From IMG/VR virus record IMGVR_UViG_3300012931_000001, positions 1 to 64,000 of that record: a stretch of DNA of 64,000 bases; one strand, 5' to 3'. Position 1 is the stretch's first letter. Each line of letters opens with the position of its first letter. Source of the stretch: a virus. A program made the position numbers and the translations under genes. This document shows, piece after piece, positions 8,777-56,892 of the stretch. The notes under the pieces were generated by a model. It saw only the letters and a program-made list of their open reading frames with translations. It made no database searches and was not told the DNA's origin.

Positions 8777-9127
8777 TTACTCGTCTTGGTTTTGTTTCAG
8801 CCAGATTGTCGTACCTTCCATTCCAGTCCATGCGCAGGGATCGTAATTTTTGATTGTACCTGTCGATATTCTCCCTGAGAATCCAGTCACGGTAACGATG
8901 TCGTTGACCTTGAACGGGATGTCGTAAACGGGGATTATCAGTTTCGGTGCGCTCTTGAATTCCAGACCTTGCAGCGTGGTATCGCCGGACGTGTTCAGGT
9001 TGAAGCCGCATTTTCCGGAATACAGGGTGTCGAACATTTCCTCCCCGGTACTCGCGTTGACAGAGCCATTGGCCCTGTTTATCACGCAAGTATCAGGATA
9101 GAATATGTCGTCATCCACGTATGTCAT
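8777..9127 (-). CDS. Probable head closure protein
   Basis: A 116-residue, strand-rich small protein in the position of SPP1 gp16-like head closure proteins, which seal the connector after packaging. Four-base overlap with the upstream connector gene points to translational coupling. The G-F-S-G-R-I-S-T-G-T motif and the final IWLKQ strand fit a small beta-barrel. The call is by position and fold impression. Confidence 0.5.
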   Translation of the reverse strand: MTYVDDDIFYPDTCVINRANGSVNASTGEEMFDTLYSGKCGFNLNTSGDTTLQGLEFKSAPKLIIPVYDIPFKVNDIVTVTGFSGRISTGTIKNYDPCAWTGMEGTTIWLKQNQDE

Positions 9128-9489
9128 TTCCAGAGGTATGATGCGTCGTAAACCATGCTTTCATTCGGAGTTGTCACTCCCCACTTGGCCCGCAGTGATT
9201 CTGCCCGCAGCCTCCATGCAGCGCGGTCGGATTCGGTCGCGCTGTATGAGGATGAGGATACGCTTCGGTTGTCAATCTTTACCGAGCTTCCGCCACCGGA
9301 AACGAATCCGGCTGCGGCTTCCCACATCATGGCCTCCATCAGGTCGCGGTTTTGCTCCGAGACCGTGCTCGCCAATACCCCTGACTCCACGCCATACCTC
9401 AAAAGCGCCCTCTCGATGGTGTCATCGGAGAAGTTGTAATTCGAGATTATGGATTGCAGATACTGGTTTATGGTCAGTGTAGATGCCAT
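9124..9489 (-). CDS. Probable head-tail connector (adaptor) protein
   Basis: A 121-residue, mainly helical protein directly after the capsid gene. Small helical adaptors (HK97 gp6 or SPP1 gp15 type) sit at this place and bind the portal ring. Helices at residues 5-20, 40-60 and 85-105 surround a Ser/Gly-rich loop. No diagnostic motif. It overlaps the head closure gene by four bases. Confidence 0.5.
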   Translation of the reverse strand: MASTLTINQYLQSIISNYNFSDDTIERALLRYGVESGVLASTVSEQNRDLMEAMMWEAAAGFVSGGGSSVKIDNRSVSSSSYSATESDRAAWRLRAESLRAKWGVTTPNESMVYDASYLWK

Positions 9490-9501
9490 GATTGGTTCGG
9501 T

Positions 9502-10683
9502 TTAGGATGCGCCGTATGGATGCAAATACCACATATACTGCGGTTTGTCAGGAACGACCAATGTGGTCATTTCTGTCTCAAACTGCTGAATCTTGCGCTG
9601 AGGCTGGGATGTTACGGTCAGCAACAGGCGCCCACCATAATAAGAGGCGGTCGAGTCGGCACCCGGAGCAGGAAATGGTTGTACAGTGTGTATCTCACCA
9701 AGGCTTCCGTCAGGCACAAGCACGATGACGTTGGCATCAAAGGCGCGGATCTGCGTTTCAGTCAACACCCCTTTTGCCGTTAATGCTTCTCCGTTCACGA
9801 TGCTATCGATGATTTTGAAAGGACAGTCAAGGATTTCTCCGAGCTTGTTCATTCGTTCCTTGTACGGAAGCATCGCAGCAGCAGCGGATTGGGAGGCAGC
9901 ATCCGCAAGCGGATAAAGATATGCGCCGACTTTAGCGAGAACCTTGCTATGGTTAGCTACTTGCTTTGCGTACAGTTTGTCGATTTCAAAATGTTTTGCC
10001 GCAATACCTTTGTCTTCAGCCGCGTCAATCATTGTTTGAAAATCGGAAACCGGATCGCAAGAACTGCCTTCGCTCGAATAGACACCGCTTGTATTAACTG
10101 TCCACCAACGGGCATTCCCCGTCTTGGTTGTGATATTCCCAAGCGGAATATGCGATGCGAAAGTGTCTTTGATCCCGCGAGGGTTATTCGCATTGGTCAA
10201 TTCCAATTTTCCGGCTGATACGATCTGGTGACGCTGATAGGTCACGGACATCGTGTGCCCACCGATCAGGTAGTCAAGCTTGTTGAAAAGTTCAGTGATG
10301 GCGTTTTCGAGGGCGGCGTTACCGGAACCTCCGTACATTTTATTGATTATTTCCTGCTTACGCCAAGAGTCCTCATCATAAAACTGTACTTTTTTCTGGC
10401 GCGGTATTTTGCCGGTTGACAAGGTGAAACCTTTGGTTCCGTCCGGAATCACATCTGCCTGAGTGGGCACATAGGTGGCCATCTTGTACAGGTTTAATTC
10501 CTTCTGGATCTGCTCGTAGGTGAAATCGAGCTGCATTGCCGGGGCAAACGCGAATCCGTCCCATTGGGCCAAATTATATTTGTTCGCCATTACATTGTCC
10601 AAGAATCCCTGGAGTTTTGCGGAGCTGCTCGCACCCAGTGCGCCAGCTATGAGGTCATAGACCCCTGTTGAATAGGTATTCAT
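9502..10683 (-). CDS. Major capsid protein
   Basis: A 393-residue protein flanked by scaffold and decoration-type genes on one side and connector genes on the other. Length, a central helix-rich spine region (residues 225-300) and beta-rich ends fit an HK97-fold or lambda gpE-like major capsid protein. No protease cleavage signature is obvious. It is in the same operon as the scaffold-like and decoration genes, four bases from the latter. Confidence 0.75.
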   Translation of the reverse strand: MNTYSTGVYDLIAGALGASSSAKLQGFLDNVMANKYNLAQWDGFAFAPAMQLDFTYEQIQKELNLYKMATYVPTQADVIPDGTKGFTLSTGKIPRQKKVQFYDEDSWRKQEIINKMYGGSGNAALENAITELFNKLDYLIGGHTMSVTYQRHQIVSAGKLELTNANNPRGIKDTFASHIPLGNITTKTGNARWWTVNTSGVYSSEGSSCDPVSDFQTMIDAAEDKGIAAKHFEIDKLYAKQVANHSKVLAKVGAYLYPLADAASQSAAAAMLPYKERMNKLGEILDCPFKIIDSIVNGEALTAKGVLTETQIRAFDANVIVLVPDGSLGEIHTVQPFPAPGADSTASYYGGRLLLTVTSQPQRKIQQFETEMTTLVVPDKPQYMWYLHPYGAS

Positions 10684-12425: not shown

Positions 12426-12433
12426 TATATTTG
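12426..12433 (+). promoter_or_regulatory. Candidate -7 box for the large terminase gene
   Basis: TATATTTG lies 20 bases before the terminase ATG. No TTTG box is present at the expected -33 spacing, so this promoter is weaker or needs an activator. It is back-to-back with the minus-strand promoter at 12386-12417. Confidence 0.4.
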
Positions 12434-12453
12434 TGTTAAAAATATTACCACCC

Positions 12454-14142
12454 ATGCTGAAATTGAAACAGGAACGGGTCGCTTGGCCTGCAAAATATCC
12501 GAAAGTGGAGAGGAAAGAGCCAACGATAGATGAGGAAGGCTGGGTAAAAGTGGATGGTAAACTGCTCAGAAAGGGCGTGGATATTATTCCACAGGAGGGG
12601 CTGCAAACCGAGATGATAACGGAAAACGTCGATATACAGCTACTCGGGGGAGACCCCGGGGCGGGGAAAAGCTACGGAATACTCTTAGCCGCATTGGACG
12701 GAATAGATAGACCCGGATACGGCGCGCTAATAGTGAAAAAACAACTCGTCGCAACAAAAGGCGGGGCCGGTGGTATAATCGAAGACGCTAAGAGGATCTA
12801 TATACCTTTCGCTGATTGTGAGTTTAGAGAGTCTGACAATCCGACTTTTTCATTTCCGGGATGGGGCACAGCGGTCACGTTTACCCATGCAAATTTCTCA
12901 GGAGAAAGCTCGAAATCCCTGACGGACGCACAGGAAAAATTCAAAAATTTTCAAATTTCCCATTTGTATGTAGATGAAGCAACCGACCATTCGTGGAAGG
13001 TTGTCAGTTATTTATTGAGCAGAAATAGGGACAACTCGGGTGTCCCTCCAAAAATGATATTGACGTTCAATACGAATAGCGACCACTGGACAAGACAACT
13101 AATAGATTGGTGGATAGACGAACATGGCAATGTCATTCCAGAAAGAATCGGCGTTGTTAGATACTGTCATATCCAAGGAGATAGCGTCAGGGATATTGTA
13201 TGGGGAAGCACAAGGGAAGAAGTCGTCAGGCTGTGCGGGATCAAAATTAGGCAGGACTTGTCTGATTTCGGGATGTCCGCCGAGCAGTTGGTAATGTCGG
13301 TAATTTTCCGTCCAAGTGGAATGCTTGACAACAAGATACTGCTTTCCTCCACCAAAGGAAGGCACGCAGCGAATATCTTCAACCTTGGAGGTACAGAAAC
13401 AGGCAAGTTGTATCATAACAACTGGAACCAGGAAGTTGAAGGCGTCGCAACCGTATCCCGCCAGATGATAAAAAATATGTGGGGGAACCCTACAATCGAC
13501 GGAAGACAGATGTACGCCTCCCTTGATGTGGCGGGTGGCGGAGACAACTGTGTTATGGTTATATGGAAAGAATTGACGATCGTCGCCATCGAAAATTTTG
13601 ACGGGGATTACAAACAGTTGGAGCAGTGGATTTCCGTTATACTACGGCAATACGGGGTTCCGATAGAAAATATGGCGTTTGACGCAACCGGATCTGGTTC
13701 ATATCTGAAATCGTATACTAACGGTCGGGCTATAACCGCCAATGCTCGGGCAATCCAAGAGGTTGACGAGGCGGGGAATCCCGTCCTGATGGAGCAGTTC
13801 TATAATATCCGCTCTCAGTTGATGGGTAAAATGCAATACCTGATGGAAACCGGCCAAATCTCCTGCTTGGTGGACATGCACAGATTATACCCGCATGGCA
13901 GTAAAAAAACACCAAAGGAGCTGATAGAAATCCTGTACGTAGAGGCCGACGAATTCCGGAGGACGACAAAAAACAATAAATTTTATTTCAAACTGAAGAC
14001 CGAGTTCAAGGAAAGATACGGGTATTCTCCTGATTACTGGGATGCAATATTATATCGAGCAATATTTGAGTTGGAAAGCAAAAGCCGGAAGGAGATTGAG
14101 CAGGAACTTACTATTGCTGATTATGCAGCGCTATGGGGATGA
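12454..14142 (+). CDS. terL: Terminase large subunit
   Basis: A 562-residue packaging motor. The N-terminal ATPase has a Walker A GGDPGAGKS at residues 65-73 and a Walker B/coupling segment LYVDEATD at 171-178. The C-terminal RNase H-like nuclease has Asp residues in SLDVAGGGD (about 354) and FDATGSG (about 410), ending with DYWDAILYR. It couples ATP hydrolysis to DNA translocation at the portal and cuts concatemers. The ATG at 12454 is preferred over an in-frame GTG at 12433, which lies inside the -7 box. The gene stands alone on the plus strand, opposite to all other virion genes in the window. Confidence 0.93.
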   Translation: MLKLKQERVAWPAKYPKVERKEPTIDEEGWVKVDGKLLRKGVDIIPQEGLQTEMITENVDIQLLGGDPGAGKSYGILLAALDGIDRPGYGALIVKKQLVATKGGAGGIIEDAKRIYIPFADCEFRESDNPTFSFPGWGTAVTFTHANFSGESSKSLTDAQEKFKNFQISHLYVDEATDHSWKVVSYLLSRNRDNSGVPPKMILTFNTNSDHWTRQLIDWWIDEHGNVIPERIGVVRYCHIQGDSVRDIVWGSTREEVVRLCGIKIRQDLSDFGMSAEQLVMSVIFRPSGMLDNKILLSSTKGRHAANIFNLGGTETGKLYHNNWNQEVEGVATVSRQMIKNMWGNPTIDGRQMYASLDVAGGGDNCVMVIWKELTIVAIENFDGDYKQLEQWISVILRQYGVPIENMAFDATGSGSYLKSYTNGRAITANARAIQEVDEAGNPVLMEQFYNIRSQLMGKMQYLMETGQISCLVDMHRLYPHGSKKTPKELIEILYVEADEFRRTTKNNKFYFKLKTEFKERYGYSPDYWDAILYRAIFELESKSRKEIEQELTIADYAALWG

Positions 14143-14942: not shown

Positions 14943-15170
14943 TGTTTACGTTAACCTAAAACAAAATATATCGACACTGAGCAGTTCTGATGGTATGCGT
15001 TCGTGTACTGTTTTAAATTTAAGCCGCCACTAAGGACTTACCGTTCTTTTTACGCCTCAATCGGAGAACCAATTTTCGTCACCAACTTGTGATGCCGTCC
15101 GATAATCTTGTTCGCAAATACACTTAAATAAATCCGTCAAACATGGCGGCTTCTCGCCTTTGATGAGTTG

Positions 15171-15243
15171 TGGAGCGAAAGGGATTCAAACCCTTGACCT
15201 CCTGCTTGCAAAACAGGCGCTCTATCGGCTGAGCTACCACCCC
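15171..15243 (-). tRNA. tRNA-Ala (TGC)
   Basis: A full 73-base cloverleaf: acceptor GGGGTGG with TCGCTCC, including the G3-U70 pair typical of tRNA-Ala; D arm GCTC/GAGC; anticodon stem CCTGT/GCAGG with loop TTTGCAA giving anticodon TGC; T arm AAGGG-TTTGAAT-CCCTT. No encoded CCA. Confidence 0.85.
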
Positions 15244-15326
15244 AATGAGCCGGTATAAATACATTCAGTCAAATTCCCGGCAGCCACCATCTTCTTTAGT
15301 GGTCTTTTGCTTTTAAATAAAGGTTG

Positions 15327-15401
15327 TGGAGAATAAAGGGTTCGAACCTCCAACCTCATTGCCATCAAGACAATACGCTCTACCAACTGAGCTAATTCCC
15401 C
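15327..15401 (-). tRNA. tRNA with enlarged anticodon arm, identity uncertain
   Basis: A 75-base cloverleaf with intact acceptor (GGGGAAT/ATTCTCC), D arm (GCTC/GAGC) and T arm with TTCGAAC loop. The anticodon arm is two bases too long: either a five-pair stem with a nine-base loop TCTTGATGG, or a six-pair stem with loop CTTGATG. The first would place GAT (Ile) near the loop centre, the second TGA (Ser), but the long variable arm of tRNA-Ser is missing. The body resembles Bacteroidetes tRNA-Ala and tRNA-Ile. Confidence 0.65.
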
Positions 15402-15495
15402 TGTTTGCCGTCTTTCCGAACTGTCATACATGAGCCGCGATTTTACTCGTCCTCGTTCCTAACCTCTGTAAGCGAGCTGATTCGAACAGCATTCG

Positions 15496-15569
15496 TGGGC
15501 GCATACGGAATCGAACCGCAAACCTTGACTGTATAAGAGTCCTGCTCTAACCTATTGAGCTATATGCCC
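15496..15569 (-). tRNA. tRNA-Ile (TAT)
   Basis: A 74-base cloverleaf: acceptor GGGCATA with TGCGCCC (one mismatch), D arm GCTC/GAGC, anticodon stem closing loop CTTATAC with anticodon TAT, and T arm with TTCGATT loop. It would read AUA, which the phage genes use often. Confidence 0.8.
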
Positions 15570-28527: not shown

Positions 28528-28814
28528 TAACCGTAAAACATAAATTCCAGCCACGGATGTTCGTTCCGTGGTCGTCCATATCCGGGAACATTGCTTTTAT
28601 GCACGGCGAAGACAAGGAGATCGAGACCGCAGACGGAATCGCGTGTGCGGTAAAAAAATATACGGAAATTCACATCCTGTCGCAAGAAGCGACCGAGCTG
28701 GTATCCGAATTATACGACATGCAGGTCATGTCGTTTTTGAGGCTGTGGTACAAGAAATGTCCGTGGCTGAGCGAGATGTGGTTTGTTTATCTGGAACTTA
28801 AAAAAAATGAGTAA
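28524..28814 (+). CDS. Uncharacterised protein
   Basis: 96 residues; strand-rich N-terminus, helical C-terminus with W/F/Y. It precedes and overlaps the SF2 helicase by eight bases. No family recognised. Confidence 0.5.
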   Translation: MITVKHKFQPRMFVPWSSISGNIAFMHGEDKEIETADGIACAVKKYTEIHILSQEATELVSELYDMQVMSFLRLWYKKCPWLSEMWFVYLELKKNE

Positions 28815-30372
28815 CCCTCTAACCCCTCTCCTTCTCCGCCCATACCAGCAGCGTATCATCGAGGCGACCACCCAATCTATGTTAAAAAACAATAGGCGGG
28901 GTGATCGCCATATTGGGGTGTACGCTCCTTGCGGATCCGGCAAGAGCGTGTTGGCCGCATTTATGGCTCAAAACTCTGCAATAAAAGGAAACAGGACGCT
29001 TATTCTTACGCACAGGGCAGAGATTTTAAAGCAGAATTTTTTCAAGATGGAAATGCTTAGGCTTGACGTTTCGTTTATCAACGCGAACGTGACGAAAATT
29101 CCAACATCACAGATTGTGTGCGCGATGGTTCAAACGCTTCGGTCGAGATGTGAAAGCGAAAGGCGGGCTGAGGAGTATATCGAGTTCATCGGATCGTTCG
29201 ATTTTATCATCATCGATGAGGCGCATCGCGCAGAACATGATATGATGTTTAAATATTTTAAAAAAAACGCGTGGGTCGTCGGGCTTTCGGCGACTTGGCT
29301 TAGGTCTGGAAACCAGAAGCAGTTGCGTGATTTTTATTTTGATATTGTCGCTCCGGTAACGCCATCTGAACTGATTGGCTTAGGCCACATCCTTCCGTCG
29401 GAAAATTATATTTTCGATGCCCCAAAACTCGATGATGTTGCAGTGGATTATTCATCTGGGGATTATAATCAAAAACAATTGCAGTCAAGGTTTGCTAAAC
29501 CTGAGCGTTATTCTGGAATTATCGAAAATTACAAAAGGATCTGCCCTGGTAAAAAGGTAATTATTTTCACTACCGGATCACTTCATTGTATTGGGTTGAC
29601 TAAAGAATTCTGCGATGCTGGTATAAAAGCCAAGTATCTTTTGTCTGAACGAAACCCTGATACTGACGCACGGTACTCAGGGGAACGCAGCGTTGTGTTA
29701 AATGAATTAAAGAGTGGTGACATAACGGCTCTTATCTCGGTCGAGATGATTTCAACGGGGCTTGATATGCCTGAACTTGAAGCCGTGATACTTGACTATT
29801 CCACCCAGTCATACACTAAGTATCAGCAATCGGTGAATAGGCCATGCCGTCCGTTTGGAGGGCAAAAATCGTTTTTTGTTTTGGATTTCGGCTCTAACGT
29901 ACAAATCTACGGGAAGCCTGAAGCGGATCCTATAATGTCGCTATTTCATAAAGTTGGGGGAGGAGGGGTGGCGCCATCGAAAGTCTGCCCAGATGACCGC
30001 CAAGATAGCGAAGGCCGTACTGGATGCGGTCGGATATGGCCAATCTCGACGATGATTTGCCCTCGGTGCGGTTTTACGTGGCTGACCGATAAGCAACAGT
30101 ATGAAGTAACCCTTACAAAGATGGTTGAGAATATTGATTATGCGAATGAGACCATTCCGCAATTCTGTGCCAGGATGAAACTAAGAGGATGGGAGAATAA
30201 ATGGATACTTCAGAATATCTGCAAAAAGAATAAGGATAACCAGAAGAAAGCATTTCTTGAAGCAATAAAAGTACTCAGGGGGAAGAATGGCGAAATGATA
30301 AGCCCGTGGTACTGGAAGACATTCAGCGCGATATATTTAAAGGAAAAAAAGGGGGAAGAGCCGCAAACCTAA
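28807..30372 (+). CDS. SF2 DEAH-type helicase with zinc finger
   Basis: 521 residues from ATG 28807 (MSNPLTPL). RecA domain 1: RPYQQ, Walker A APCGSGKS at 40-47, LTHR, DEAH at about 138-141 and motif III LSAT. Domain 2: VIIFTTGS, MISTGLDMPELEAVI (motif V) and QSVNRPCRP (motif VI-like). A C-terminal zinc finger of four Cys (C-P-D, C-G, C-P-R-C-G; about 395-425) follows. Acts in DNA unwinding or branch processing in phage replication or recombination. It is last in the early operon and overlaps the HNH gene end by four bases. Confidence 0.85.
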   Translation: MSNPLTPLLLRPYQQRIIEATTQSMLKNNRRGDRHIGVYAPCGSGKSVLAAFMAQNSAIKGNRTLILTHRAEILKQNFFKMEMLRLDVSFINANVTKIPTSQIVCAMVQTLRSRCESERRAEEYIEFIGSFDFIIIDEAHRAEHDMMFKYFKKNAWVVGLSATWLRSGNQKQLRDFYFDIVAPVTPSELIGLGHILPSENYIFDAPKLDDVAVDYSSGDYNQKQLQSRFAKPERYSGIIENYKRICPGKKVIIFTTGSLHCIGLTKEFCDAGIKAKYLLSERNPDTDARYSGERSVVLNELKSGDITALISVEMISTGLDMPELEAVILDYSTQSYTKYQQSVNRPCRPFGGQKSFFVLDFGSNVQIYGKPEADPIMSLFHKVGGGGVAPSKVCPDDRQDSEGRTGCGRIWPISTMICPRCGFTWLTDKQQYEVTLTKMVENIDYANETIPQFCARMKLRGWENKWILQNICKKNKDNQKKAFLEAIKVLRGKNGEMISPWYWKTFSAIYLKEKKGEEPQT

Positions 30373-34893: not shown

Positions 34894-35856
34894 TTATTTT
34901 CTTATTAAATAATCCAAAACCAAATCACCCATATCCGCCTTCGCTCCGCACTCCCAGCCATGATAATTTTTCCACCAGCGGGAACATTGCCCGGGATACC
35001 TCTTATTCCATTCTTCCCACGCATCTATATCCGACAGTATCGTCCAGTCCGGTTGCACCCAGCTTTTCGGCATGTTATTTTTCCCACCAGTTGCCAAGAA
35101 AATATGCTTTCCAAAATAAGCGGCGCAGACTACAGCGGTCTTCTCTGCCTCGACCACAAAAATCCGTTCGCCATCCTTCCTGTCTTTCAGTAAATGCTCC
35201 CCGAAAAGACACCGGTTGGAGAAACCCTTTCCTTTTTTGAACCTTCGTCCGCCGCCGTATTCGTGGTCTCGATGCCCATCGAGTCCGTACAGCATCAGCT
35301 TGTCATGGCAAACACCCTTGCTGTTAACATACCAAAATTGTGTCATATTAGAACTTTCCGCTGACCCTGCGATTTTAAACGGATAGCAGCCGACCAGATA
35401 TTTACGTAAATAAAACTCGGCTTTTTCCTTCCCGAATGTCGCAGCCATGAATAGCGAAAAATTATCCTTGACCTGAAGGCGCTTTTCGTAACTCTGTTCC
35501 ATAAATACGCGCGGGACGAATTTCGACTCGACCACCAGTTCTATCGTATCCGGCACTTCAAATACCGCACCGCCCAGAGCCAGCAGTTTTTGCCTGGCCT
35601 CGACCGGCGTGCGGCATCCTCCGTATTTTTGCATCCACGCGAAAAGCGTCAGGTATTCTCCGCCCTGCTCAAAAACCTGTACCCCGTCATCGACCATCCT
35701 GCATACCAGCTTGTCCCAGCGGTTCGAGTACGCCCCGTCGATATGGCGTGAGGCGAACCAGCGCGGACCTTTGCGGATCATCGGCATCGACATTATCTGC
35801 GGAAGTATCGAAAATACTTTCGCGTAGTCTATTCGGGTTTGTTCAAATTTGCCCAT
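34894..35856 (-). CDS. Primase with Toprim core (DUF6371-like)
   Basis: 320 residues from ATG 35856; longer frames upstream overlap the helicase gene. The C-terminal region carries Toprim marks: IFVVEAEKTAVVCA (catalytic Glu), LATGGKNN and ILSDIDAW (D-x-D). The middle resembles the DUF6371 domain seen in Bacteroidetes primase-like proteins. Synthesises RNA primers for replication. Stop of the helicase and start of this gene are adjacent (one base), consistent with a primase-helicase pair. Confidence 0.7.
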   Translation of the reverse strand: MGKFEQTRIDYAKVFSILPQIMSMPMIRKGPRWFASRHIDGAYSNRWDKLVCRMVDDGVQVFEQGGEYLTLFAWMQKYGGCRTPVEARQKLLALGGAVFEVPDTIELVVESKFVPRVFMEQSYEKRLQVKDNFSLFMAATFGKEKAEFYLRKYLVGCYPFKIAGSAESSNMTQFWYVNSKGVCHDKLMLYGLDGHRDHEYGGGRRFKKGKGFSNRCLFGEHLLKDRKDGERIFVVEAEKTAVVCAAYFGKHIFLATGGKNNMPKSWVQPDWTILSDIDAWEEWNKRYPGQCSRWWKNYHGWECGAKADMGDLVLDYLIRK

Positions 35857-35857
35857 A

Positions 35858-37315
35858 TCAAAAAGGTAATTCCTGTTCTTCTTCCGTAAATACACCCAAT
35901 CCGGTTTCCTTCTCTGGTTCTCCGATTTCATCCCCATCGTTGAAATCGATCTTATAAAACGACCAGCCAGTGCTTTTCTTGCCAAAAATCCGAAGTGTCG
36001 GTTCATATGTAAAATTCTCTTGTCGTATATCATCGAAAAAATTATTCTTGGATTTCGGGGTGTTCCGCCAGCTGGTGCAATATTCGACGTAATTAGAGAA
36101 TAAGTCTACCGAGTGCATGCAATCCCTATGCCCAGCCTGCCCAGGCTTCAGCCTTCCTACCCACCCTTTTTCTTCAAGGAACGACAGGACGCTACTGGAA
36201 TGCTGTCTCATTTTTCTATTCGCATCTTCCATCTTTTCCGATTCGGTAAATTGCCCATGTGATTTTACCAGCCTTTCCCGCCCCTCCATTATCCAATTCA
36301 GAATTCCAGATGCCTCGGTCCTTAATTTCAGTTCCACGTATCCATCAGCGGACTTCCCCTCAAATGTCTTTTCAAAACGGACAATCTTATATCTCCTCCA
36401 GTTCCCATTCGTCGAGTCGGTCGTAACCGGGACCTTGTTTATGCTCGCCATCATCAGCGGCATCTCCCTTGCCGTGAACGGAGCCATTCCGATGGGTCGA
36501 GCCATGATTGGATCATAGGATGTTATCGCCTTAAATTGCCCCCCAGAAAAGTCCTTGTCTCCCATATCTGAGACGTTGTTCAATAATTTACCGTTTGCCA
36601 CAGCCGTGTTGTAATTTGCATCATTGGTGGTACAAAGCTGTGGAAAGGAAAAGTTCGTATAATTTTCTTGCCCAATAACGTAATTTATAGTATCTCCGAG
36701 TACCGTTTTCCCATTTGCCCCCGTTCCGTAGAGAAACATGGCGACCGCTACTTTCATATCAGCTCTGTCGATAAACATCAGCCCAAAAAATTCCTGCAAT
36801 ACCTTTATTGAATCCTCGTCGGATATGACTTCGGTCAAAAATTTTCGCCACTCAGGGCATTTCGCTTTTGGGTCATAGCCGTGCGGAATGTGCGTTCTCG
36901 TCATCCACTCCGGTCCATGCTCGTGCGATTTCATGTCGTTAAGCGTCAGCACGCAGTTATTGAAGGATATTATACTTTTCGACGGCTCAAACGACTTCAT
37001 TTTGCGCGACCGGTATATACGCTTAAAAATAGACTCAATGCTTTTCATTTGATATGGTATACCAATCTCAAGCTCCTCAAGCAGCCCGCAAATTAAATCA
37101 TATACATTATTGCTACTTAATTTCTCGTACTTTATTCCGTTGTATATAAATAATGTTTCCTCTCCTTTTCTGATTCCATTCTCCGATGCAACCCTTGCAA
37201 TTTCAATAGCAATCTTACCCTCTATCACCACATCCACCTTGGTGTGTTCAGCCCCAAGGCCGCCAAGGGTGGAGAGGGCTTGGGATAGCCTTCCTATTAC
37301 ATGGTCCATTTCCAT
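35858..37315 (-). CDS. SF3 helicase (D5/P4-alpha type)
   Basis: 485 residues. A D5-like N-terminal part, then the superfamily 3 ATPase: Walker A GTGANGKT at 197-204, an acidic motif DMGDKDFSGGQFKAITS, a sensor Asn in MASINKVP and the Arg-containing NWRRYKIVRFE, ending with a C-terminal winged domain (about 380-450). Drives unwinding at the replication fork with the primase downstream. The final acidic tail (EEEQELPF) mimics SSB tips. The only full-size helicase in the leftward operon. Confidence 0.85.
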   Translation of the reverse strand: MEMDHVIGRLSQALSTLGGLGAEHTKVDVVIEGKIAIEIARVASENGIRKGEETLFIYNGIKYEKLSSNNVYDLICGLLEELEIGIPYQMKSIESIFKRIYRSRKMKSFEPSKSIISFNNCVLTLNDMKSHEHGPEWMTRTHIPHGYDPKAKCPEWRKFLTEVISDEDSIKVLQEFFGLMFIDRADMKVAVAMFLYGTGANGKTVLGDTINYVIGQENYTNFSFPQLCTTNDANYNTAVANGKLLNNVSDMGDKDFSGGQFKAITSYDPIMARPIGMAPFTAREMPLMMASINKVPVTTDSTNGNWRRYKIVRFEKTFEGKSADGYVELKLRTEASGILNWIMEGRERLVKSHGQFTESEKMEDANRKMRQHSSSVLSFLEEKGWVGRLKPGQAGHRDCMHSVDLFSNYVEYCTSWRNTPKSKNNFFDDIRQENFTYEPTLRIFGKKSTGWSFYKIDFNDGDEIGEPEKETGLGVFTEEEQELPF

Positions 37316-37684: not shown

Positions 37685-38524
37685 TTAAATTTTTGACAAT
37701 TTCCAGTCAGTCGGGTAATAATCGTCATTTCCGTACCTTTCTTGGAATGCATCCGATATATTTCTCCCGCAATGTACGGCCTCCCCATCCATTATATTCT
37801 TGACATACCACATCTGCCACCACGAGAATGTGGAGCTACCGCCAATGAAATAGTCGCAGCTTGCACCAAGTACGAACTGATCCATAGGGTCTGAGTGGTA
37901 CATCGGGCCGTGCAGGTGAGTATTGTTCGGCTCCGGGTAAAAGAACGGCTGGTCGTGAAAATAAGAGCGGCACCACGCGATGTCGTCGGAAAACACCACG
38001 ACCTTGCTGTTCTTTTTCCATGAAGGATAAAACTTGCCAAGCGTTTCAAAATACCACGTCTCTGGTATCTGATAAAAAACCTCGTGCCCGACAAAATCTC
38101 CACGACGGATTCCAAGCCCGACAAGCTGGGCTTCCTTGAACCCATCATATTTATCAAGGGTCGATTCTACGGCGTCGCGGCTAAACTGGAACTTTTCTTT
38201 CACTATTCCGACGTCAAACCACTTCTCGGATTGCAGAAAGCAAGTCAGATCAAAATTTATAACCTTATTTCGATTGCTGCGAAAAAACTCATACATGTAA
38301 TTTTTCGCTGTATCAGAATATCCCGGCCCCGGTGCCTGAAAAAGCAGGTCGTACTCGGTATCGGTAGTCAGTTTCGGCGGATGCGCAAGATATTTCCATA
38401 GAAAATATTTAGCCGGCATCTCCACCTCATGCCCGGTCGCCTCGGCCACGCTCACGATGGTCGCGTACACAAAAAGCCAGTTCCCGAGTCGTGTGTGCTG
38501 CCCAAATTGGTTGCATCGTATCAT
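37685..38524 (-). CDS. GT11-like alpha-1,2-fucosyltransferase
   Basis: 279 residues with family GT11 marks: N-terminal LGNWLFVYA (the LGNQLFQYA pattern), the nucleotide-sugar motif GIRRGDF at 138-144, and FIGGSSTFSWW at 226-236 (the SNSTFSWW pattern). These enzymes transfer fucose from GDP-fucose to a galactose. The acceptor is unknown. It is the last gene in the sugar cassette, followed at 45 bases by the replication genes. Confidence 0.85.
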   Translation of the reverse strand: MIRCNQFGQHTRLGNWLFVYATIVSVAEATGHEVEMPAKYFLWKYLAHPPKLTTDTEYDLLFQAPGPGYSDTAKNYMYEFFRSNRNKVINFDLTCFLQSEKWFDVGIVKEKFQFSRDAVESTLDKYDGFKEAQLVGLGIRRGDFVGHEVFYQIPETWYFETLGKFYPSWKKNSKVVVFSDDIAWCRSYFHDQPFFYPEPNNTHLHGPMYHSDPMDQFVLGASCDYFIGGSSTFSWWQMWYVKNIMDGEAVHCGRNISDAFQERYGNDDYYPTDWKLSKI

Positions 38525-39255
38525 AGGAATCTCCTCCTATTTTTAAATCCATTTTGAAAATATTCCTCATGCGCAGCGTCTGGGAGTCCATAATGAAAAT
38601 TCCAACCTTTATGCTTGCTATCCTCGGCTATTCCGCGATCACGGATCTCGTGCTGCCTTGCAAGCCCCGTGTCCCAGTTCTGCCACTTAGTATGATACAG
38701 CGGATAATGGATTTCGCTCCATTTTGGCTGTACCACATCTCGCATCGTGGGTTGGCAGGTGTGGCTGCCAGGGGCAAAATTCATGTCGAGAACCGAAGGC
38801 GCGTGAAAAAGGACGCTCTTACAATACCCTTCGGATTCGATTCCCCAAAATTCATCCGGCTTGTCATCGTCCGCGCCAAAGAGTTCTACTCCTTGGCATT
38901 TACACAGGTTCCATTTTTCGCCGTCATTGCAATCAAGTAAATCTTGCTCTGTAATATCGATAAGTTCATCGCTGTCGCATACGATTATAAACATCGCATT
39001 AGACCTTTTCCATGCGTTGTTCCTTAAAGAAATCAAGGCAGATTCATCCATTTTTCCACCGGTATCAAATTGGCGAAACTTCACCTTGTTTATATCGCAT
39101 ACAAATCGCGTTTCATTACCATCCGTTGACATGTTATCATGAACGGTTATGTCGCACATGGGCACTCTTTCTCGATACCATTTAATAAAACGCTCGACGG
39201 TTGCCGGCTCGTTCCAGCTTGTTGTGAAAATTTCTAATAGTGGCCGCATAATCAA
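38521..39255 (-). CDS. GT-A glycosyltransferase
   Basis: 244 residues with a family-2-like N-terminus (LEIFTTSWNE), a DxD motif in VCDSDELID (about 95-103), and a Trp/His-rich C-terminus (YPLYHTKWQNW). Overlaps the fucosyltransferase start by four bases, so both are probably one functional unit. Substrate unknown. Confidence 0.75.
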   Translation of the reverse strand: MIMRPLLEIFTTSWNEPATVERFIKWYRERVPMCDITVHDNMSTDGNETRFVCDINKVKFRQFDTGGKMDESALISLRNNAWKRSNAMFIIVCDSDELIDITEQDLLDCNDGEKWNLCKCQGVELFGADDDKPDEFWGIESEGYCKSVLFHAPSVLDMNFAPGSHTCQPTMRDVVQPKWSEIHYPLYHTKWQNWDTGLARQHEIRDRGIAEDSKHKGWNFHYGLPDAAHEEYFQNGFKNRRRFL

Positions 39256-41224: not shown

Positions 41225-41812
41225 TTAGTTATGAACGAATAGCGCGCGCGCTATATGATACGCCACCAACCCTCTCCGAGCGCATTCCTTTGCGCAGGAT
41301 TCAGCGTAGAACCCGTCGGCACTAAAATCGTCATGTGTAAATCCTACGAATTTTGAGATGTCGGCTCGGACTATAAAACATCCCATATCCAAACCACCTT
41401 CAAACAGTCGGCTGCGGTGGTATCCGTAGTTCAGATGCGAGTGAATTGTATCTGAATAGATAAATCCAGCATTCTCCTTTTTGGTCGCCTCCATCATTTG
41501 AGAAACAAATTGGGGACAATAATAGTTGTCTGAATTAGATAATAAGACCCAATCGTTTTCGTCTGCAACAAGCGAGTTTAAAAAATATCTGCGGTTGATA
41601 TGCCCGTATTTCCCATTCCGTTTTAATGTGCAAGTAAATTTTATACGGGGATCGTCTTTATACCGATCCATTATTTTATGTACAACTTTCGGCGCCGGCC
41701 CGTCGTGGACTATGAGCATCTCCCAGTTAGGGTTAGTCTGTAACAAGAAAGAACCTATGGATACCTCCAGTTCGTGGGTGTGATTGTATGTTACAAATAT
41801 TGATTTAAGCAT
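41225..41812 (-). CDS. Family 2 glycosyltransferase
   Basis: 195 residues: MLKSIFVTYNH N-terminus, MLIVHDGP, RRYFLNSLVADENDWVLLSNSDNYYCP with SNSDN as the D-x-D variant, and a C-terminal part DDFSADGFYAESCAKEC. A small GT-A enzyme. It lies upstream of the exonuclease, with the rest of the sugar cassette 3 kb downstream in the same operon. Confidence 0.75.
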   Translation of the reverse strand: MLKSIFVTYNHTHELEVSIGSFLLQTNPNWEMLIVHDGPAPKVVHKIMDRYKDDPRIKFTCTLKRNGKYGHINRRYFLNSLVADENDWVLLSNSDNYYCPQFVSQMMEATKKENAGFIYSDTIHSHLNYGYHRSRLFEGGLDMGCFIVRADISKFVGFTHDDFSADGFYAESCAKECARRGLVAYHIARALFVHN

Positions 41813-43944: not shown

Positions 43945-44343
43945 TCATTCAAATATAAATTCGCCAACAGCCATTTCTTTTATCTTCTTCAGCGCTTCTT
44001 TTGATGGAGCCACCCCGTCGCACATGATGGGCTCAACACCTTGAACGCAGTGTTGAATATTCTGTATTGCATCAGATAAAACACTTCCAATCATACGGCA
44101 AACCTCGCCGTTTGATCCGTATACAAACAGCTTGTTCGGATGGAATTTCCCACTAATCCACAAGGCTGCCGAATACGGCTTAAACTCGGAAAGTTGCATT
44201 TTTGCGTTGTCAATGTTTAGAACAACAACCCTTGCCTCGTGAAGGCTTTCATGGTGGCCGGATTTAGGATCAAAAACATAGACCGAGACCTTCTTAAATA
44301 TTTTCTCGACCGCTATTTTTTCAAACTTTCTCATGTCATTCAA
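43945..44343 (-). CDS. Uncharacterised protein
   Basis: 132 residues, alpha/beta, with strands VSVYVFDP, ARVVVLNIDN and a C-terminal acidic helix. ATGA overlap with the upstream large gene. No family recognised. Confidence 0.5.
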   Translation of the reverse strand: MNDMRKFEKIAVEKIFKKVSVYVFDPKSGHHESLHEARVVVLNIDNAKMQLSEFKPYSAALWISGKFHPNKLFVYGSNGEVCRMIGSVLSDAIQNIQHCVQGVEPIMCDGVAPSKEALKKIKEMAVGEFIFE

Positions 44344-46262
44344 ATTTTGTGCCTTTTCAGAAAGGCGGGTTTTACTTCGGAGTTGAAAAATTCGGTGGCT
44401 TCGGATTCGGTGCGGAAATAATTGCCAAGTTCGTAGTGGTACCCATCTAGCCTATCACGATAGTCCTTTCGAGGTCTCTGGAGTCCATCGGAATCAATAT
44501 AATAATATGATTCACCTTTATCCGCCCTCCATCTTTTCGTCTCCACCTGTTTCTTTTCGGCGTTCCATATTTTACCGTCTTTGTCAAGGGCAGAGATGAG
44601 CCGTTGGCGCTCAGGCGAGGTCGCTAGTCCACGGATGCCCGAAAATTCTCCACACGTAATAATACAGTCTTCATCAGTATATAAATTGCCATCTTCGCTA
44701 ATTGTGGCGTAAGGAAAAACACGGCCAGCCTGCTCTTTTTTGAATATTGTAATCCATCCATTATTTTGTGTGATTATATCCCCATCCTTCGGTTCCCATT
44801 TTTCCACTTTCGTCAACACCTTCTTCTTGGCGTTCCACTTGTATCCAGCCTCGACCATCTTTTCAAAAAATAGGCAGCGCTCTTCACGGGTGGCCAACCT
44901 GTAATCGAACCCAGTGAATATGCATGTACCAGTAAAAAACCTGCCACCATAAAGGAGGGCATAAGAATGAAGCGTATTCAGGAGCTGGTTTTTTCCTTTA
45001 TATATCAGGATCCCCCCGCCCTTCAGTTTCACCACGTCCCCATCGGTAGGGGCCCATGCTCCACCATTCGTGCTAAATAATATTCCAAATTCAAACATTT
45101 TTTTAGACTCATCTTTTGATAGTTTTTTTGGCTTAACTCCGCTAAGATCTTCCTCTATTTTATCAGCTATCGTTTGTCCGATGCTCTCCGCCGCGTAATT
45201 CTTGCATTTAGCACACGCCATTTTCTCCTCAATAGATCGTCTATCAATCGGCTTACTCAATACGGACCTAAAGTATTCGCTTAGAATATCAGTAGATGGT
45301 GTTTGGGTGGATTTATTTATCTTCACCACCTCCATCTTCACCACCTCTCCATCGGTAGGAGTCCAAGGTTTAGTCGCAGTCAGGGTGCTCATGTGTGCGC
45401 CCGCCATTTTGTCCAGGTTGTCGACCTGCATCCGCGCCGTCATTTTCGGTATGGACTTAATCGGGGCGTATATTCCCCCTTTTTTCACCGTATCTCCCGC
45501 TTCATGAGAATTAAGAACAGTCCAAAATCCCCTATCCCATACCGATGCTGTATTCGCTTTTTCCACCACCTCCATCTTCACCGCATCCCATCGGTATCCG
45601 GCTTTCTTAAGTTGGTTGAAAAATTCTCGGCGCTGTTTTTTGGTCGCAAGCCTCGGGGTGTGGGCAGCCATGATGGCGTCGGTTGAAATTCCGCCTCTGT
45701 AAGGCACCAATAGAACCTTTATGTTCCCCGCATTCGTGCGCTCTTTATATATATACGTCAATCCCTGCCCGTTGTCGCACACGTCGCCTTTTTTCGGTAC
45801 CCATTTCTTTTCGCCGATCTCCGCCGCATAAAACCATAAACACTCCACCTTTTCCGGTTCCGCCAGCGCAATATATCGATTCCCCTCCATCCTCATCACC
45901 ATTCTTTCCAATCCTGGATTATTTTCCGTGATCGGAGCATCCGACACCAGCATCATGCGCGGAAACTTATTATTGCTTTCCATATTTTTTTTTGGATACC
46001 TTTCAAAGAACGCGTCAAAGTTCCGATTAAATATCACATCCCTCCAAAACGCATCCCGTTCCGTCGTTGCCCACCAGTCAAAACCACCCGATAATCCGCC
46101 AGCGTGTCTCGTCTTTTCAAACACCCCGACATCCCTCTTTCCGATCTGTTTTTCCTGGTTTTCGAGCATTTTTTCGACGATTTCGTCTGGAAAGCCCTGT
46201 AGATCGCCCTTCCAGCCTTTTTTTTCTTCGTAATTTTTGCGGTTCTCGCGCGCTTGTTTCAT
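44340..46262 (-). CDS. Large protein with W-x-P-x-D-G-D repeats
   Basis: 640 residues. After a charged N-terminus there are four or more repeats of about 80-100 residues, each with a W/V-x-P-x-D/K-G-D start, a central strand with IYK or IFK, then RLAT-x-E-x-R plus an F-x-x-L-x-x-G-Y-x-W-x-A ending (clearest near 150-235, 400-495 and 495-585). The C-terminal WRADKGESYYYIDSDG part is a second domain. Such repeats are frequent in gut Bacteroidetes phages; function is unknown. It is first in the leftward replication operon, next to the origin-like region, so an origin or regulatory role is possible (inference). Confidence 0.65.
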   Translation of the reverse strand: MKQARENRKNYEEKKGWKGDLQGFPDEIVEKMLENQEKQIGKRDVGVFEKTRHAGGLSGGFDWWATTERDAFWRDVIFNRNFDAFFERYPKKNMESNNKFPRMMLVSDAPITENNPGLERMVMRMEGNRYIALAEPEKVECLWFYAAEIGEKKWVPKKGDVCDNGQGLTYIYKERTNAGNIKVLLVPYRGGISTDAIMAAHTPRLATKKQRREFFNQLKKAGYRWDAVKMEVVEKANTASVWDRGFWTVLNSHEAGDTVKKGGIYAPIKSIPKMTARMQVDNLDKMAGAHMSTLTATKPWTPTDGEVVKMEVVKINKSTQTPSTDILSEYFRSVLSKPIDRRSIEEKMACAKCKNYAAESIGQTIADKIEEDLSGVKPKKLSKDESKKMFEFGILFSTNGGAWAPTDGDVVKLKGGGILIYKGKNQLLNTLHSYALLYGGRFFTGTCIFTGFDYRLATREERCLFFEKMVEAGYKWNAKKKVLTKVEKWEPKDGDIITQNNGWITIFKKEQAGRVFPYATISEDGNLYTDEDCIITCGEFSGIRGLATSPERQRLISALDKDGKIWNAEKKQVETKRWRADKGESYYYIDSDGLQRPRKDYRDRLDGYHYELGNYFRTESEATEFFNSEVKPAFLKRHKI

Positions 46263-46459
46263 AAATAGTTTTTTTAATGTTAATTTATATAAGAAAAAAC
46301 CAAATGTAAATTGATTTTTTTTCTTTGTCGTTTGCTTTTTTAGGCTTCCATCTATTTTTCTGTCAAGTGGTTAACAATTATACCCCCGTTTAAGGTATGT
46401 AACCTGACACGACTTTTCCGAATACAAATCTACTCCAAAAATCCAAATAATCATAATAA

Positions 46460-46468
46460 TTATCCACA
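46460..46468 (+). promoter_or_regulatory. DnaA box
   Basis: TTATCCACA, the exact bacterial DnaA consensus, 24 bases before the first iteron. With the iterons it marks a probable replication origin using host DnaA. Confidence 0.6.
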
Positions 46469-46491
46469 TTATTTTGTTAAACAACGTTAAA

Positions 46492-46777
46492 TGCCGTTGT
46501 TTGCCGTGAAGTGCCGTTAGGTTGCCGTTAGGAAATTACCTCTTAACGGCCACAAAAAGGCACCCAACTCACTGTATTATACAAGGTTATAAATTAGTGC
46601 CGTTAATGCCGTTGTTTTTTTCGACCCTAAGGGCCCTAATGTGTGCGTGTGCGCGTGTGTATATCTTATATAAAATTTAACGGCATTAACGGCATTGTGT
46701 ATAAATGTCTATATATCAATACATTATCTGCCGTTAATTAATAATTTTCTAACGGCATAAAAACGGCATTAACGGCA
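46492..46777. repeat. TGCCGT iteron array, probable replication origin
   Basis: Thirteen TGCCGT/ACGGCA cores (one is ACGGCC). Forward copies start at 46492, 46502, 46512, 46523, 46598, 46607 and 46729; reverse copies end at 46551, 46685, 46694, 46757, 46768 and 46777. Many are spaced 9-11 bases, on one face of the helix. The left group is mostly forward and the right group mostly reverse, around a GT- and AT-rich stretch (46641-46679). This is the form of iteron origins bound by a Rep-type initiator. Confidence 0.65.
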
Positions 46778-47116
46778 GCGGATTTTTTTTGTGTACTTAT
46801 TTAGGAAATGGTAATGATTTGGTAAATTTGGTAACGTTGTGTTGAATATTTTCCATTACGAAATATCTGTAAAAAAATAAAAAAAAATTTGAGAGTCGCT
46901 TCCTTCTTTTTTCTCTTCTCTTTTTCCCGTCGGGGGACCCCTAACTACTTGATAATCAGATAGTTACAACCGTTTGTAACCTTAAACGGTCGTTTAAGGG
47001 TTCTAACTCGTTGATATGCGAAGTGGGTATCAATATAAATCAAAATTAAAGAATCGCATACCTGATTCTTGAAAAAAGTCATATTATTAACATTAATTTA
47101 ATTAACTAAATTCCAA

Positions 47117-47132
47117 ACTTGTATATACAAGT
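47117..47132. promoter_or_regulatory. 16-bp perfect palindrome, copy 1 (operator-like)
   Basis: ACTTGTATATACAAGT, perfectly palindromic. Identical copy 63 bases further right, and a 13/16 match at the early promoter at 20260-20275. Confidence 0.6.
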
Positions 47133-47179
47133 CAAATCCAACTATCTAATAATCAACACATTATATTTTCCTTCGTCCA

Positions 47180-47195
47180 ACTTGTATATACAAGT
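47180..47195. promoter_or_regulatory. 16-bp perfect palindrome, copy 2 (operator-like)
   Basis: Identical to the site at 47117-47132; 63 bases centre to centre is six helical turns, which suits two dimers binding cooperatively. A TATATTTG -7 box begins 43 bases downstream. Confidence 0.6.
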
Positions 47196-47812
47196 CAAAA
47201 GCCGACTATTTAACGTTTACTTTATATTGGCCTTATATATATTTGATTATCAGAGACTTATCTCAATTAATACATTTTAACGTTAATATTAATTTAACGC
47301 TTAACATAAAGTTTAAATAGAGTGTCAATGTGTTGATAATCATATAGTTAAAAATGGCCAAAAATCCGACTTTCATTTTTAGTTAAAATTGATGTTGCTG
47401 AAACATTGGATGTTAAATGATGTTAAAACTGGTAGAACTGGATGAAATTAGATACCAAATATTTTGGAGATAATACAAAGATTATGTACATTGCGTTCTG
47501 TTAGTTGTTCTTTGAGTTTCGGCCTGCTTTGCCCTTGCCATACCCGCGCGCGAGCGTGTGCCTGGTTGGATTGAAAGGCCGCTATTCTTAAGCCATTTTA
47601 GGCGATATGGTAACCCGTTTGTTCGGGCTGTACATTTGACGGTAAAAATCATTAGATTGGTTGCTTGCTGTATATCGCTGCTTATGAAATAGAATCTTTG
47701 ACGTGCTGGTGTTACTTTTACCCTGTTTACGCATTCGGGCAAATACCTGGTTTGCGGTAAAAATCGGATTTTAACGGGGTACAATTTTTCTTAACTTAAA
47801 AACACAAAAACT

Positions 47813-47971
47813 ATGAAACAATTTATTTTTAACGTTTATTTTATTGTTGATGACTACAGAATAGGCGAAAAAGTACTATTCGATGGATCAATTGAGGACT
47901 GTATGAAATACATACAAAAGGCTGGAAATAATGATGAGTTCTGTCTCATTTTCTCATGTAAATTAAACTGA
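47813..47971 (+). CDS. Small protein, first of the rightward island
   Basis: 52 residues (MKQFIFNVYFIVDD). Two strands then a helix and strand, with Cys at SIEDCMKYI and FSC. Preceded by AAACACAAAAACT, the common A-rich leader here. No family recognised. Confidence 0.5.
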   Translation: MKQFIFNVYFIVDDYRIGEKVLFDGSIEDCMKYIQKAGNNDEFCLIFSCKLN

Positions 47972-47986
47972 TTAAAACATACAACT

Positions 47987-48124
47987 ATGAAAACAACTGA
48001 TTTTGAAAAAAACGTATCTATGATGAATAGGGCTATATTAACTATTGTTAGATACAAAAAACTGTACCGATATATGGTTCAATTTTCCGACGGACGGTCT
48101 GAAAGTAGCTTTAGACGTTATTAA
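47987..48124 (+). CDS. Small basic protein
   Basis: 45 residues (MKTTDFEKN), helical start and basic C-terminal part (GRSESSFRRY). No family recognised. The following 105 bases form a strongly structured leader. Confidence 0.45.
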   Translation: MKTTDFEKNVSMMNRAILTIVRYKKLYRYMVQFSDGRSESSFRRY

Positions 48125-48136
48125 CCATTTCTTTTA

Positions 48137-48209
48137 CCCCTTATATAAGGCCTGCAAACAGGGCCTTATGTGTTGTACACGTATAAGGGGGCAACGTCCG
48201 ATATTGGAC
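48137..48209 (+). ncRNA. Three-way-junction leader RNA
   Basis: Outer stem CCCCTTAT/ATAAGGGG (48137-48144 with 48183-48190) encloses two abutting hairpins: 48145-48169 (ATAAGGCCTG with CAGGGCCTTAT) and 48170-48180 (GTGT/ACAC). A further GTCC/GGAC hairpin is at 48196-48209. The ATG at 48232 follows. The near gap-free junction suggests a folded regulatory RNA, ribosomal protein-like leader, or DNA structure. No known riboswitch motif recognised. Confidence 0.45.
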
Positions 48210-48231
48210 ACAATTTCAAAAACACAACAAA

Positions 48232-48813
48232 ATGAAGACAACATTTGATTATGCAAAATGGCTCAAAGAAAGGGCCGAAAAAGACGCTACTAAAACGGTT
48301 GATTTTAACGCGTTAACGAAAGTTGAAAAGATCAGCGCTCTGCTGTTTCTACTTGACAAGACGAAGGCCGATATGGCGGACGTGAAAATTGTGGGAATCG
48401 AAGAACGTGCTTTTGGTGAATGTAGTGCACAAGCCAAAGCGGCCGTACTGACTGAAGTGATTAAGAGGATGCAAGCGGGTGAATCTGTAGGCATACCGTC
48501 TGACAAAGATATTGTGTGCGTGCCTGTTAAGACGTCATTTGCAGCCGCTTCGATGAATGATCAAATTTCCTACTTGTCGGACCTATACTGCAAAGCAGTG
48601 GACGTGATAACCATTGATTTGCCAGCCGGCGAAGCGTGGGTAACTGGATTGACAAACCATATTGAGGCTGATTTTTTGGCCGATATTGCGGGGTACGATG
48701 AAGCCGATTATCAGGCATTTTTGGCCGATCTGGAAAATAGACGTAAACCGTTTAGCACGTTGACGCTTGTTGGCAAAACGGAAAAAGGCATATTAATTAC
48801 ACCCGAAAAGTAA
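48232..48813 (+). CDS. Uncharacterised protein behind the structured leader
   Basis: 193 residues, mostly helical N-terminal two thirds, with a strand VDVITIDLPAGEAWVTGL near residues 122-140, then an acidic helix (YDEADYQAFLADLENR). The N-terminus WLKERAEKDATKT is charged. No family recognised. A strong terminator follows, so this may be a separately regulated abundant product. Confidence 0.6.
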   Translation: MKTTFDYAKWLKERAEKDATKTVDFNALTKVEKISALLFLLDKTKADMADVKIVGIEERAFGECSAQAKAAVLTEVIKRMQAGESVGIPSDKDIVCVPVKTSFAAASMNDQISYLSDLYCKAVDVITIDLPAGEAWVTGLTNHIEADFLADIAGYDEADYQAFLADLENRRKPFSTLTLVGKTEKGILITPEK

Positions 48814-55530: not shown

Positions 55531-55602
55531 ATGTGGATAATAACCGTATTGCTCGTTTTTTGGGTTGTAATGAACGGATTTAATGAACTGTTTAGAAACT
55601 AA
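55531..55602 (+). CDS. Possible 23-residue membrane micropeptide
   Basis: ATG with frame MWIITVLLVFWVVMNGFNEL, a lone membrane segment. Too short for certainty, but several of these tiny hydrophobic frames occur in the operons here. Confidence 0.25.
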   Translation: MWIITVLLVFWVVMNGFNELFRN

Positions 55603-56151: not shown

Positions 56152-56892
56152 ATGGCACGAGAATATATATCATGGATCAGAGTATCCACAAAAAGGCAGG
56201 GAATCAGTGCGCTTGGCCTTGACGCCCAGCGCGAAATAATCCAAACATCAATGGGTGGGATCACTCCGATTGCAGAGTTTAAGGATATATACACCGGAAC
56301 GATCCTGTCTAAATGTACGGAACTCAGAAAGGCCATCAATATGGCAAAAGGAGGTGGATACCTACTGGTTGTAGCCAAAGCCGACAGGTTCAGGACGGAC
56401 ATAGAGGCGCTACAGATCTTGGACGAAATGGGAGAAGAAAATATCCGCTTTTGCGATTCGCCGGGGAGCAGCAGGCTTATTTTGACCGTTCTTTTTGCAG
56501 TATATAGGCAGCAGGCTTACATCGGGAGAATAAACACGAAAAATGCGCTCAGGCAAATTCAGAAAAAGATAGACACAGGGGAGCCTCACTACTCGAAGGT
56601 GAGCAAAAATAGGGTAACGCAACTTGGGCGTCCTCGTGGGTTAAAAGCAAAGGAGGGCTGGGCGGATCAGTCCGTCGCGCAAAAAACAGCCAGCAAAGAC
56701 CGGATCGGATCAAACCCGATCAGGCGCAGACAGTGGCTGCTTATGTCGGAGTTGCGTAACCGTGGTGACTCACTGGTGGCGATCGCCGGAACGTTAAACG
56801 CCACCGGTGAGAGAACGCCAAGTGGACAGGACTGGACAAAAGGGTCGGTAAGTCATGCGCTGAATAAATGGAGTAAATATTTTGAAAAATAA
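56152..56892 (+). CDS. Serine recombinase (resolvase/invertase type)
   Basis: 246 residues. The catalytic N-terminal domain has Ser12 in YISWIRVSTKRQG, GLDAQREII, KADRFRTD (about 75-82), and the C-terminal part (residues 190-246; RQWLLMSELRNRGDSLVAIAGTLNATG) a helix-turn-helix. Acts by paired 2-bp staggered cuts and strand exchange. It is not the large integrase type (450-550 residues). It may resolve genome multimers, invert a segment, or act as an accessory element. No repressor or att site is evident. Confidence 0.8.
   Translation: MAREYISWIRVSTKRQGISALGLDAQREIIQTSMGGITPIAEFKDIYTGTILSKCTELRKAINMAKGGGYLLVVAKADRFRTDIEALQILDEMGEENIRFCDSPGSSRLILTVLFAVYRQQAYIGRINTKNALRQIQKKIDTGEPHYSKVSKNRVTQLGRPRGLKAKEGWADQSVAQKTASKDRIGSNPIRRRQWLLMSELRNRGDSLVAIAGTLNATGERTPSGQDWTKGSVSHALNKWSKYFEK

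Follow-up and report, generated by a model that had tools for sequence, protein, structure and literature searches.

What the short repeats between two divergent operons of this virus do, and which protein acts on them, is the question raised by the region at 46460–46777. The window, the 64,000-nucleotide stretch analysed here, comprises bases 1–64000 of a 71,215-bp virus record, whose ends carry an exact 123-bp direct terminal repeat, suggesting a probably complete assembly that closes into a circle. Genes for a major head protein, a large terminase, and a portal indicate that the virus is a tailed phage. Judged from its sequence, the region is very likely a phage replication origin of the P4/PICI (SF3-helicase iteron) type, best filed as a variant of that type with a flexible or Z-prone tract.

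Structure and setting of the iteron array

The region contains the following elements, with positions given in the window.

46460–46468, plus strand: exact DnaA box TTATCCACA, bounding the array on the left
46492–46528, plus strand: left outer iterons, four TGCCGT cores (46492, 46502, 46512, 46523) spaced 10/10/11
46545–46551, minus strand: degenerate iteron AACGGCC, read directly off the sequence
46598–46612, plus strand: left inner iteron pair TGCCGTTAATGCCGT, spacing 9 (46598/607)
46613–46679, unstranded: spacer of 67 bp between the converging inner pairs, counterpart of the ~90–120 bp inner gap in related arrays
46639–46664, unstranded: alternating purine/pyrimidine tract ATGTGTGCGTGTGCGCGTGTGTATAT, 26 nt, the longest of the genome
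46656–46680, unstranded: 88% AT segment, candidate melting site
46680–46694, minus strand: right inner iteron pair ACGGCATTAACGGCA, spacing 9 (46680/689)
46696–46704, minus strand: second DnaA-type box TTATACACA, of the TTATNCACA form
46729–46734, plus strand: lone iteron, oriented opposite to the rest of the right set
46752–46777, minus strand: right outer iterons, three cores (46752, 46763, 46772)

Twelve exact TGCCGT/ACGGCA cores, of 40 in the 64-kb window, lie within 46492–46777, and the remaining one of the thirteen cores counted in the preliminary description is degenerate (46545–46551). The order and orientation of the sites are >>>> < >> (67 bp) << > <<<, with seven sites to the left and six to the right of the spacer with its 88% AT segment, and two iteron sets thus flank a candidate melting region. 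Cores within groups are spaced 9–11 bp apart, about one helical turn, as described earlier; because the groups are approximately 17–68 bp apart, this phasing is local and not continuous. The best 8-mer cluster had a log10 p of −20.2, compared to −7.8 for the best of six Markov-resampled genomes, and the array is the strongest short-repeat cluster of the genome, far above chance.

The exact DnaA box reported for the region was confirmed at 46460–46468, and a second exact copy of TTATCCACA occurs at 55532. The whole record contains six boxes of the TTATNCACA form, two of them here (46460 and 46696), for which P was about 2e-4 when computed after the fact. The spacer contains a T-tract, GGGCCC, the alternating run, and the 88% AT segment, and the AT/GT-rich melting stretch described earlier is really two elements, namely the run at 46639–46664 and the AT segment at 46656–46680. 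The next longest alternating run in the genome is 15 nt, and a run reaching 25 was present in only 0.5% of 200 Markov-resampled genomes.

The array is intergenic: the leftward gene on one side starts at 46262, and the rightward operon on the other begins at approximately 48232, in agreement with the divergent-operon setting first proposed. Comparison of window positions 44300–48300 with phage records revealed no DNA match, and an Rfam scan of 46000–48300 returned none. The same intergenic region harbours two copies, ~60 bp apart, of a 16-bp palindrome, ACTTGTATATACAAGT (47117–47196), and TGATAATCA..ATAGTTA-like repeats near 46949, 47138, and 47330, which resemble operator elements of the rightward operon and are separate from the iterons. 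The cumulative GC skew, which had been expected to turn here, does turn at approximately 47 kb (minimum at 47305), but it turns with the gene strand everywhere; because its sign matches the gene strand in each of the seven blocks, the test is uninformative here, and GC skew was rejected as origin evidence. Elsewhere in the window, three tRNA genes (Ala, Ser, and Ile) lie on the minus strand at 15170–15569, and a protein encoded at 56152–56892 matches the DNA invertase/integrase families phrog_125 and phrog_95, suggesting that the phage may be temperate or have an invertible segment.

The candidate initiator and its neighbours

Two overlapping genes on the minus strand are of interest.

35858–37315, minus strand: P4-family SF3 helicase, 485 aa, proposed initiator (TIGR01613, D5_N, DUF5906, PDB 7ola)
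34894–36033, minus strand: DUF6371 protein, overlapping the helicase gene (DUF6371 match, weak PHROG 239 match, Toprim-like motifs)

The preliminary description left the initiator unknown and listed an HTH protein (37319), a large repeat protein (44340), and two SF3-like ATPases as candidates. One of these ATPases is indeed an SF3 helicase (35858–37315), whereas the other, the large helicase at 28783–30372, is an SF2/DEAD protein. The 640-aa repeat protein and the 106-aa HTH protein matched no Pfam, PHROG, or NCBIfam family, and the P4-family SF3 helicase, with a C-terminal region that binds origins in relatives, is preferred to both and can now be named as the candidate. No relatives of the 640-aa protein were found in viral contigs, and no RepA/RepE/TrfA-type initiator family was found among the proteins scanned, which cover the small genes in part.

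The helicase matched TIGR01613 ('phage/plasmid primase, P4 family') with an E value of 1e-42 and 146 bits (curated cut-off, 108.7) and contains D5_N and DUF5906 domains, and its family profile matched PDB 7ola ('DNA primase', 797 aa) with an E value of 7.8e-19 over positions 98–445. Residues ~400–460 presumably form an origin-binding winged helix; this C-terminal region aligns across relatives and also occurs as a standalone ORF in a related contig, G001. When iteron type was compared with winged-helix residues among 34 helicases, four columns sorted perfectly, two of which (423 and 425) lie in the presumed recognition helix, with locus L164 breaking the 423 rule. An AlphaFold model of the helicase built from two sequences had a pLDDT of 36, too low for use. 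The DUF6371 protein is probably a separate primase half, a role suggested by the weak PHROG 239 match and the Toprim-like motifs, and the two proteins are apparently a split form of the primase-helicase that is a single protein in P4. Their genes overlap by 176 bp (34894–37315), and three glycosyltransferase-like genes (37685–39255 and 41225–41812) belong to the same leftward operon as the replication genes. The array lies 9.2 kb upstream of the helicase gene, not adjoining it, and thus not at the position directly downstream of rep that marks the PICI/SaPI subtype. Such a distant initiator gene is not unusual, because the origin of P4 is located 2.3 kb from its alpha gene.

Recurrence of the array and the alternating tract in other phages

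Repeat clusters near related helicase genes were sought by an unsupervised scan with Markov-resampled genomes as the null. As a positive control, the scan of phage P4 returned GGTGAACA at 9310–9413, inside the annotated origin. Among 19 further loci, a set that leaves out P4 and the window and includes contig L045, itself found by its iterons, the top repeat cluster was 0–70 bp away from the helicase gene at 11 loci and no more than 700 bp away at 14; four of these 14 arrays (PF672P2, RcapNL, Pthi1, and AchV4) surpassed the null by at most two log units. No convincing array was found near the helicase gene in the other five (Dulem virus 40, phiC31, Vibrio 1.103, phi_270, and L138). In a wider search with proteobacterial helicases, an array directly followed the helicase gene in 85 of 86 loci, with near-fixed spacings of 9, 11, 20, 45, 9, ~100, 9, 9, 46, 11, and 20, and at least five copies of an 8-mer were present in 26 of 27 non-redundant loci, compared to 2 of 530 control windows. 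The earlier view that such origins are uncommon among tailed phages is thus wrong on these data, and the comparison with other phages supports the reading as an iteron replication origin well. The iteron sequence depends on the family (CCCAACAC, CCCTGCAC, TCAGACAG, CCCGCACA, or TGCCGTY), whereas the converging-pair layout is constant. Immediately behind its helicase gene, the distant contig L045 carries an array that matches that of the window in its TGCCGT core, converging layout, and orientation scheme and contains an alternating tract of 26 nt. In L170, L196, and other proteobacterial loci, the arrays are mixed, with spacer-proximal iterons of TGTGTAAGG and outer ones of TGTTGGGT, a pattern that would fit separate evolution of the inner and outer sites.

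The contig G001 (L004) is syntenic with the window phage, with 76% identity in the head protein and 47–48% in the helicase. It starts with a TTATACACA box upstream of the homologous operon, and the alternating run at 77–100, at 24 nt the longest of the contig, is equivalent to the window tract. No TGCCGT cluster was found in G001, whose iterons are not visible because the contig breaks just inside the homologous region, and a full array was thus not seen in close relatives. At 354–797, within several hundred bases of the presumed origin, G001 also carries a standalone 147-aa ORF, of which the final ~95 residues match the C-terminal part of the phage's own helicase, the part presumed to bind the origin; the ORF is possibly a copy-number regulator acting via heterodimers, and no counterpart was found in the window phage. 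The partial contigs of the more distant, MCP-based relatives G002–G004 contained no recognisable iteron array, and G004 has a short GACCAAAG repeat near its end. The helicase scan of genome contigs returned L138, without a clear array, as the sole relative, and 44 stretches of other viral contigs with TGCCGTTAATGCCGTT yielded no array. No G+C-containing array was recognised in the Parabacteroides phage-plasmid L283.

Within a locus, the longest alternating run lay inside the array in 24 of the 27 non-redundant cases, compared to the 7.5% expected by length. The tract bases vary between loci while the purine/pyrimidine pattern stays, and alternation reached 21.9 of 25 steps, compared to 19.8 ± 0.2 after column shuffling (0 of 1000 shuffles; 27 sequences, kinship uncontrolled). 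The tract is not universal, and the arrays of P4, Mcat4, and PF672P2 have no run of 12 or more. These patterns suggest that the alternating tract inside the array is a new and probably functional element. We further suggest, with slightly less than even confidence, that the P4-family SF3 origins of tailed phages share a conserved alternating tract between converging iteron pairs that may be kept for its physical behaviour (Z-DNA or easy kinking or melting at pyrimidine–purine steps) and not for its sequence, and that may be the site where two helicase hexamers first distort the duplex. The conserved tract thus provides a concrete, testable hypothesis for origin opening by SF3 helicases.

Alternative explanations, proposed mechanism, and known systems

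The sites may instead be operators, with a phage repressor or activator on the array controlling the two divergent operons. Repeated operators occur in many phage control regions, and the array does lie between divergent transcription units; however, 12–13 sites that face each other as two sets across a long spacer are unlike an operator, related phages have the array behind the 3′ end of a helicase gene and not at a promoter, and two operator-like copies of ACTTGTATATACAAGT lie nearer the rightward operon, which leaves this explanation unlikely. It is quite unlikely that the array is an iteron origin with another initiator, namely the 640-aa protein, the HTH protein, or host DnaA alone. The start of the 640-aa gene is 230 bp from the first iteron and two DnaA boxes are present, but the 640-aa and 106-aa proteins are without a known family, and arrays of the same layout follow P4-family helicases in many phages.

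Plasmid iteron arrays also act as centromeres, and the region might be a partition site for a ParB/ParR-type protein of a plasmid-like prophage. This is very improbable, given that the proteins scanned, which cover the small genes in part, revealed no partition gene and that recurrence beside helicase genes does not fit such a site. Packaging sites can hold repeats recognised by the small terminase, but the large terminase gene (12433–14142) is ~32 kb away, and a packaging start (pac/cos) site is the least credible of these explanations.

Returning to the replication origin of the P4/PICI type, we propose the following scenario. The presumed C-terminal winged helix of the helicase (35858–37315) would bind the TGCCGTTAA sites on one DNA face, and two hexamers would assemble face to face on the two iteron sets. 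The flexible tract and the AT segment would then open, the helicase would unwind outward, and the separate DUF6371 primase would make primers. Host DnaA may assist via the two boxes, though this is the weakest step and speculative. This design of start site, so far credited mainly to small phage satellites, is common in ordinary tailed phages, suggesting that satellites and tailed phages share a replication module. Because the arrays indicate the same design in many ordinary tailed phages, the origin position and initiator become predictable from sequence for a large class with an unannotated start. In the open-access literature, we found no description of such arrays in tailed phages with P4-family helicases; an earlier one is possible.

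The origin of P4 (annotated at 9086–9809, with type 1 repeats GGTGAACA in both orientations at 9310–9413) resembles the candidate origin of the window in its P4-family helicase, here proposed as initiator, in its 8-bp sites, which occur in both orientations and ~10 bp apart within groups, and in its location between divergent units, kilobases from the initiator gene. The winged-helix domain of P4 alpha binds the origin repeats (PMC4234260). P4 is a satellite, whereas the window phage is a full-size 71-kb tailed phage with primase and helicase in separate genes and not in one protein, and its array has another iteron, more sites, DnaA boxes, and the alternating purine/pyrimidine tract, which is absent from the P4 origin. 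Furthermore, the P4 replicon repeats its iteron in a second cis-acting region (crr), whereas no second TGCCGT cluster was found in the 71-kb record.

PICI origins always have two iteron sets around an AT-rich region, and pri-ori plasmids of PICIs are functional (PMC6092414). In both SaPI Rep, which apparently acts as two hexamers, and Cch2, it is the C-terminal domain that recognises the iterons (PMC7581432). The window array shares with PICI/SaPI origins with Rep (Pri-Rep) the two iteron sets flanking a melting region (PMC6092414, PMC7581432), and the C-terminal domain of the window helicase may have the same role in iteron recognition as that of Rep. PICIs are satellites with the origin directly 3′ of rep, whereas the window phage is a complete tailed phage with the candidate origin 9.2 kb upstream of the helicase gene, and the work on PICIs describes an AT-rich spacer and not an alternating tract.

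The arrays of Turba, Lodos, PG1, pAN, S1, H4907, and L045, which carry no origin annotation in their records, resemble the window array in their converging inner pairs ~9 bp apart and their spacer with an alternating tract. Arrays of proteobacterial phages lie immediately downstream of the helicase gene, whereas the window array does not, and their inner gap is ~90–120 bp, compared to 73 bp in the window. Their iterons also differ from those of the window, except in L045, which has the TGCCGT core.
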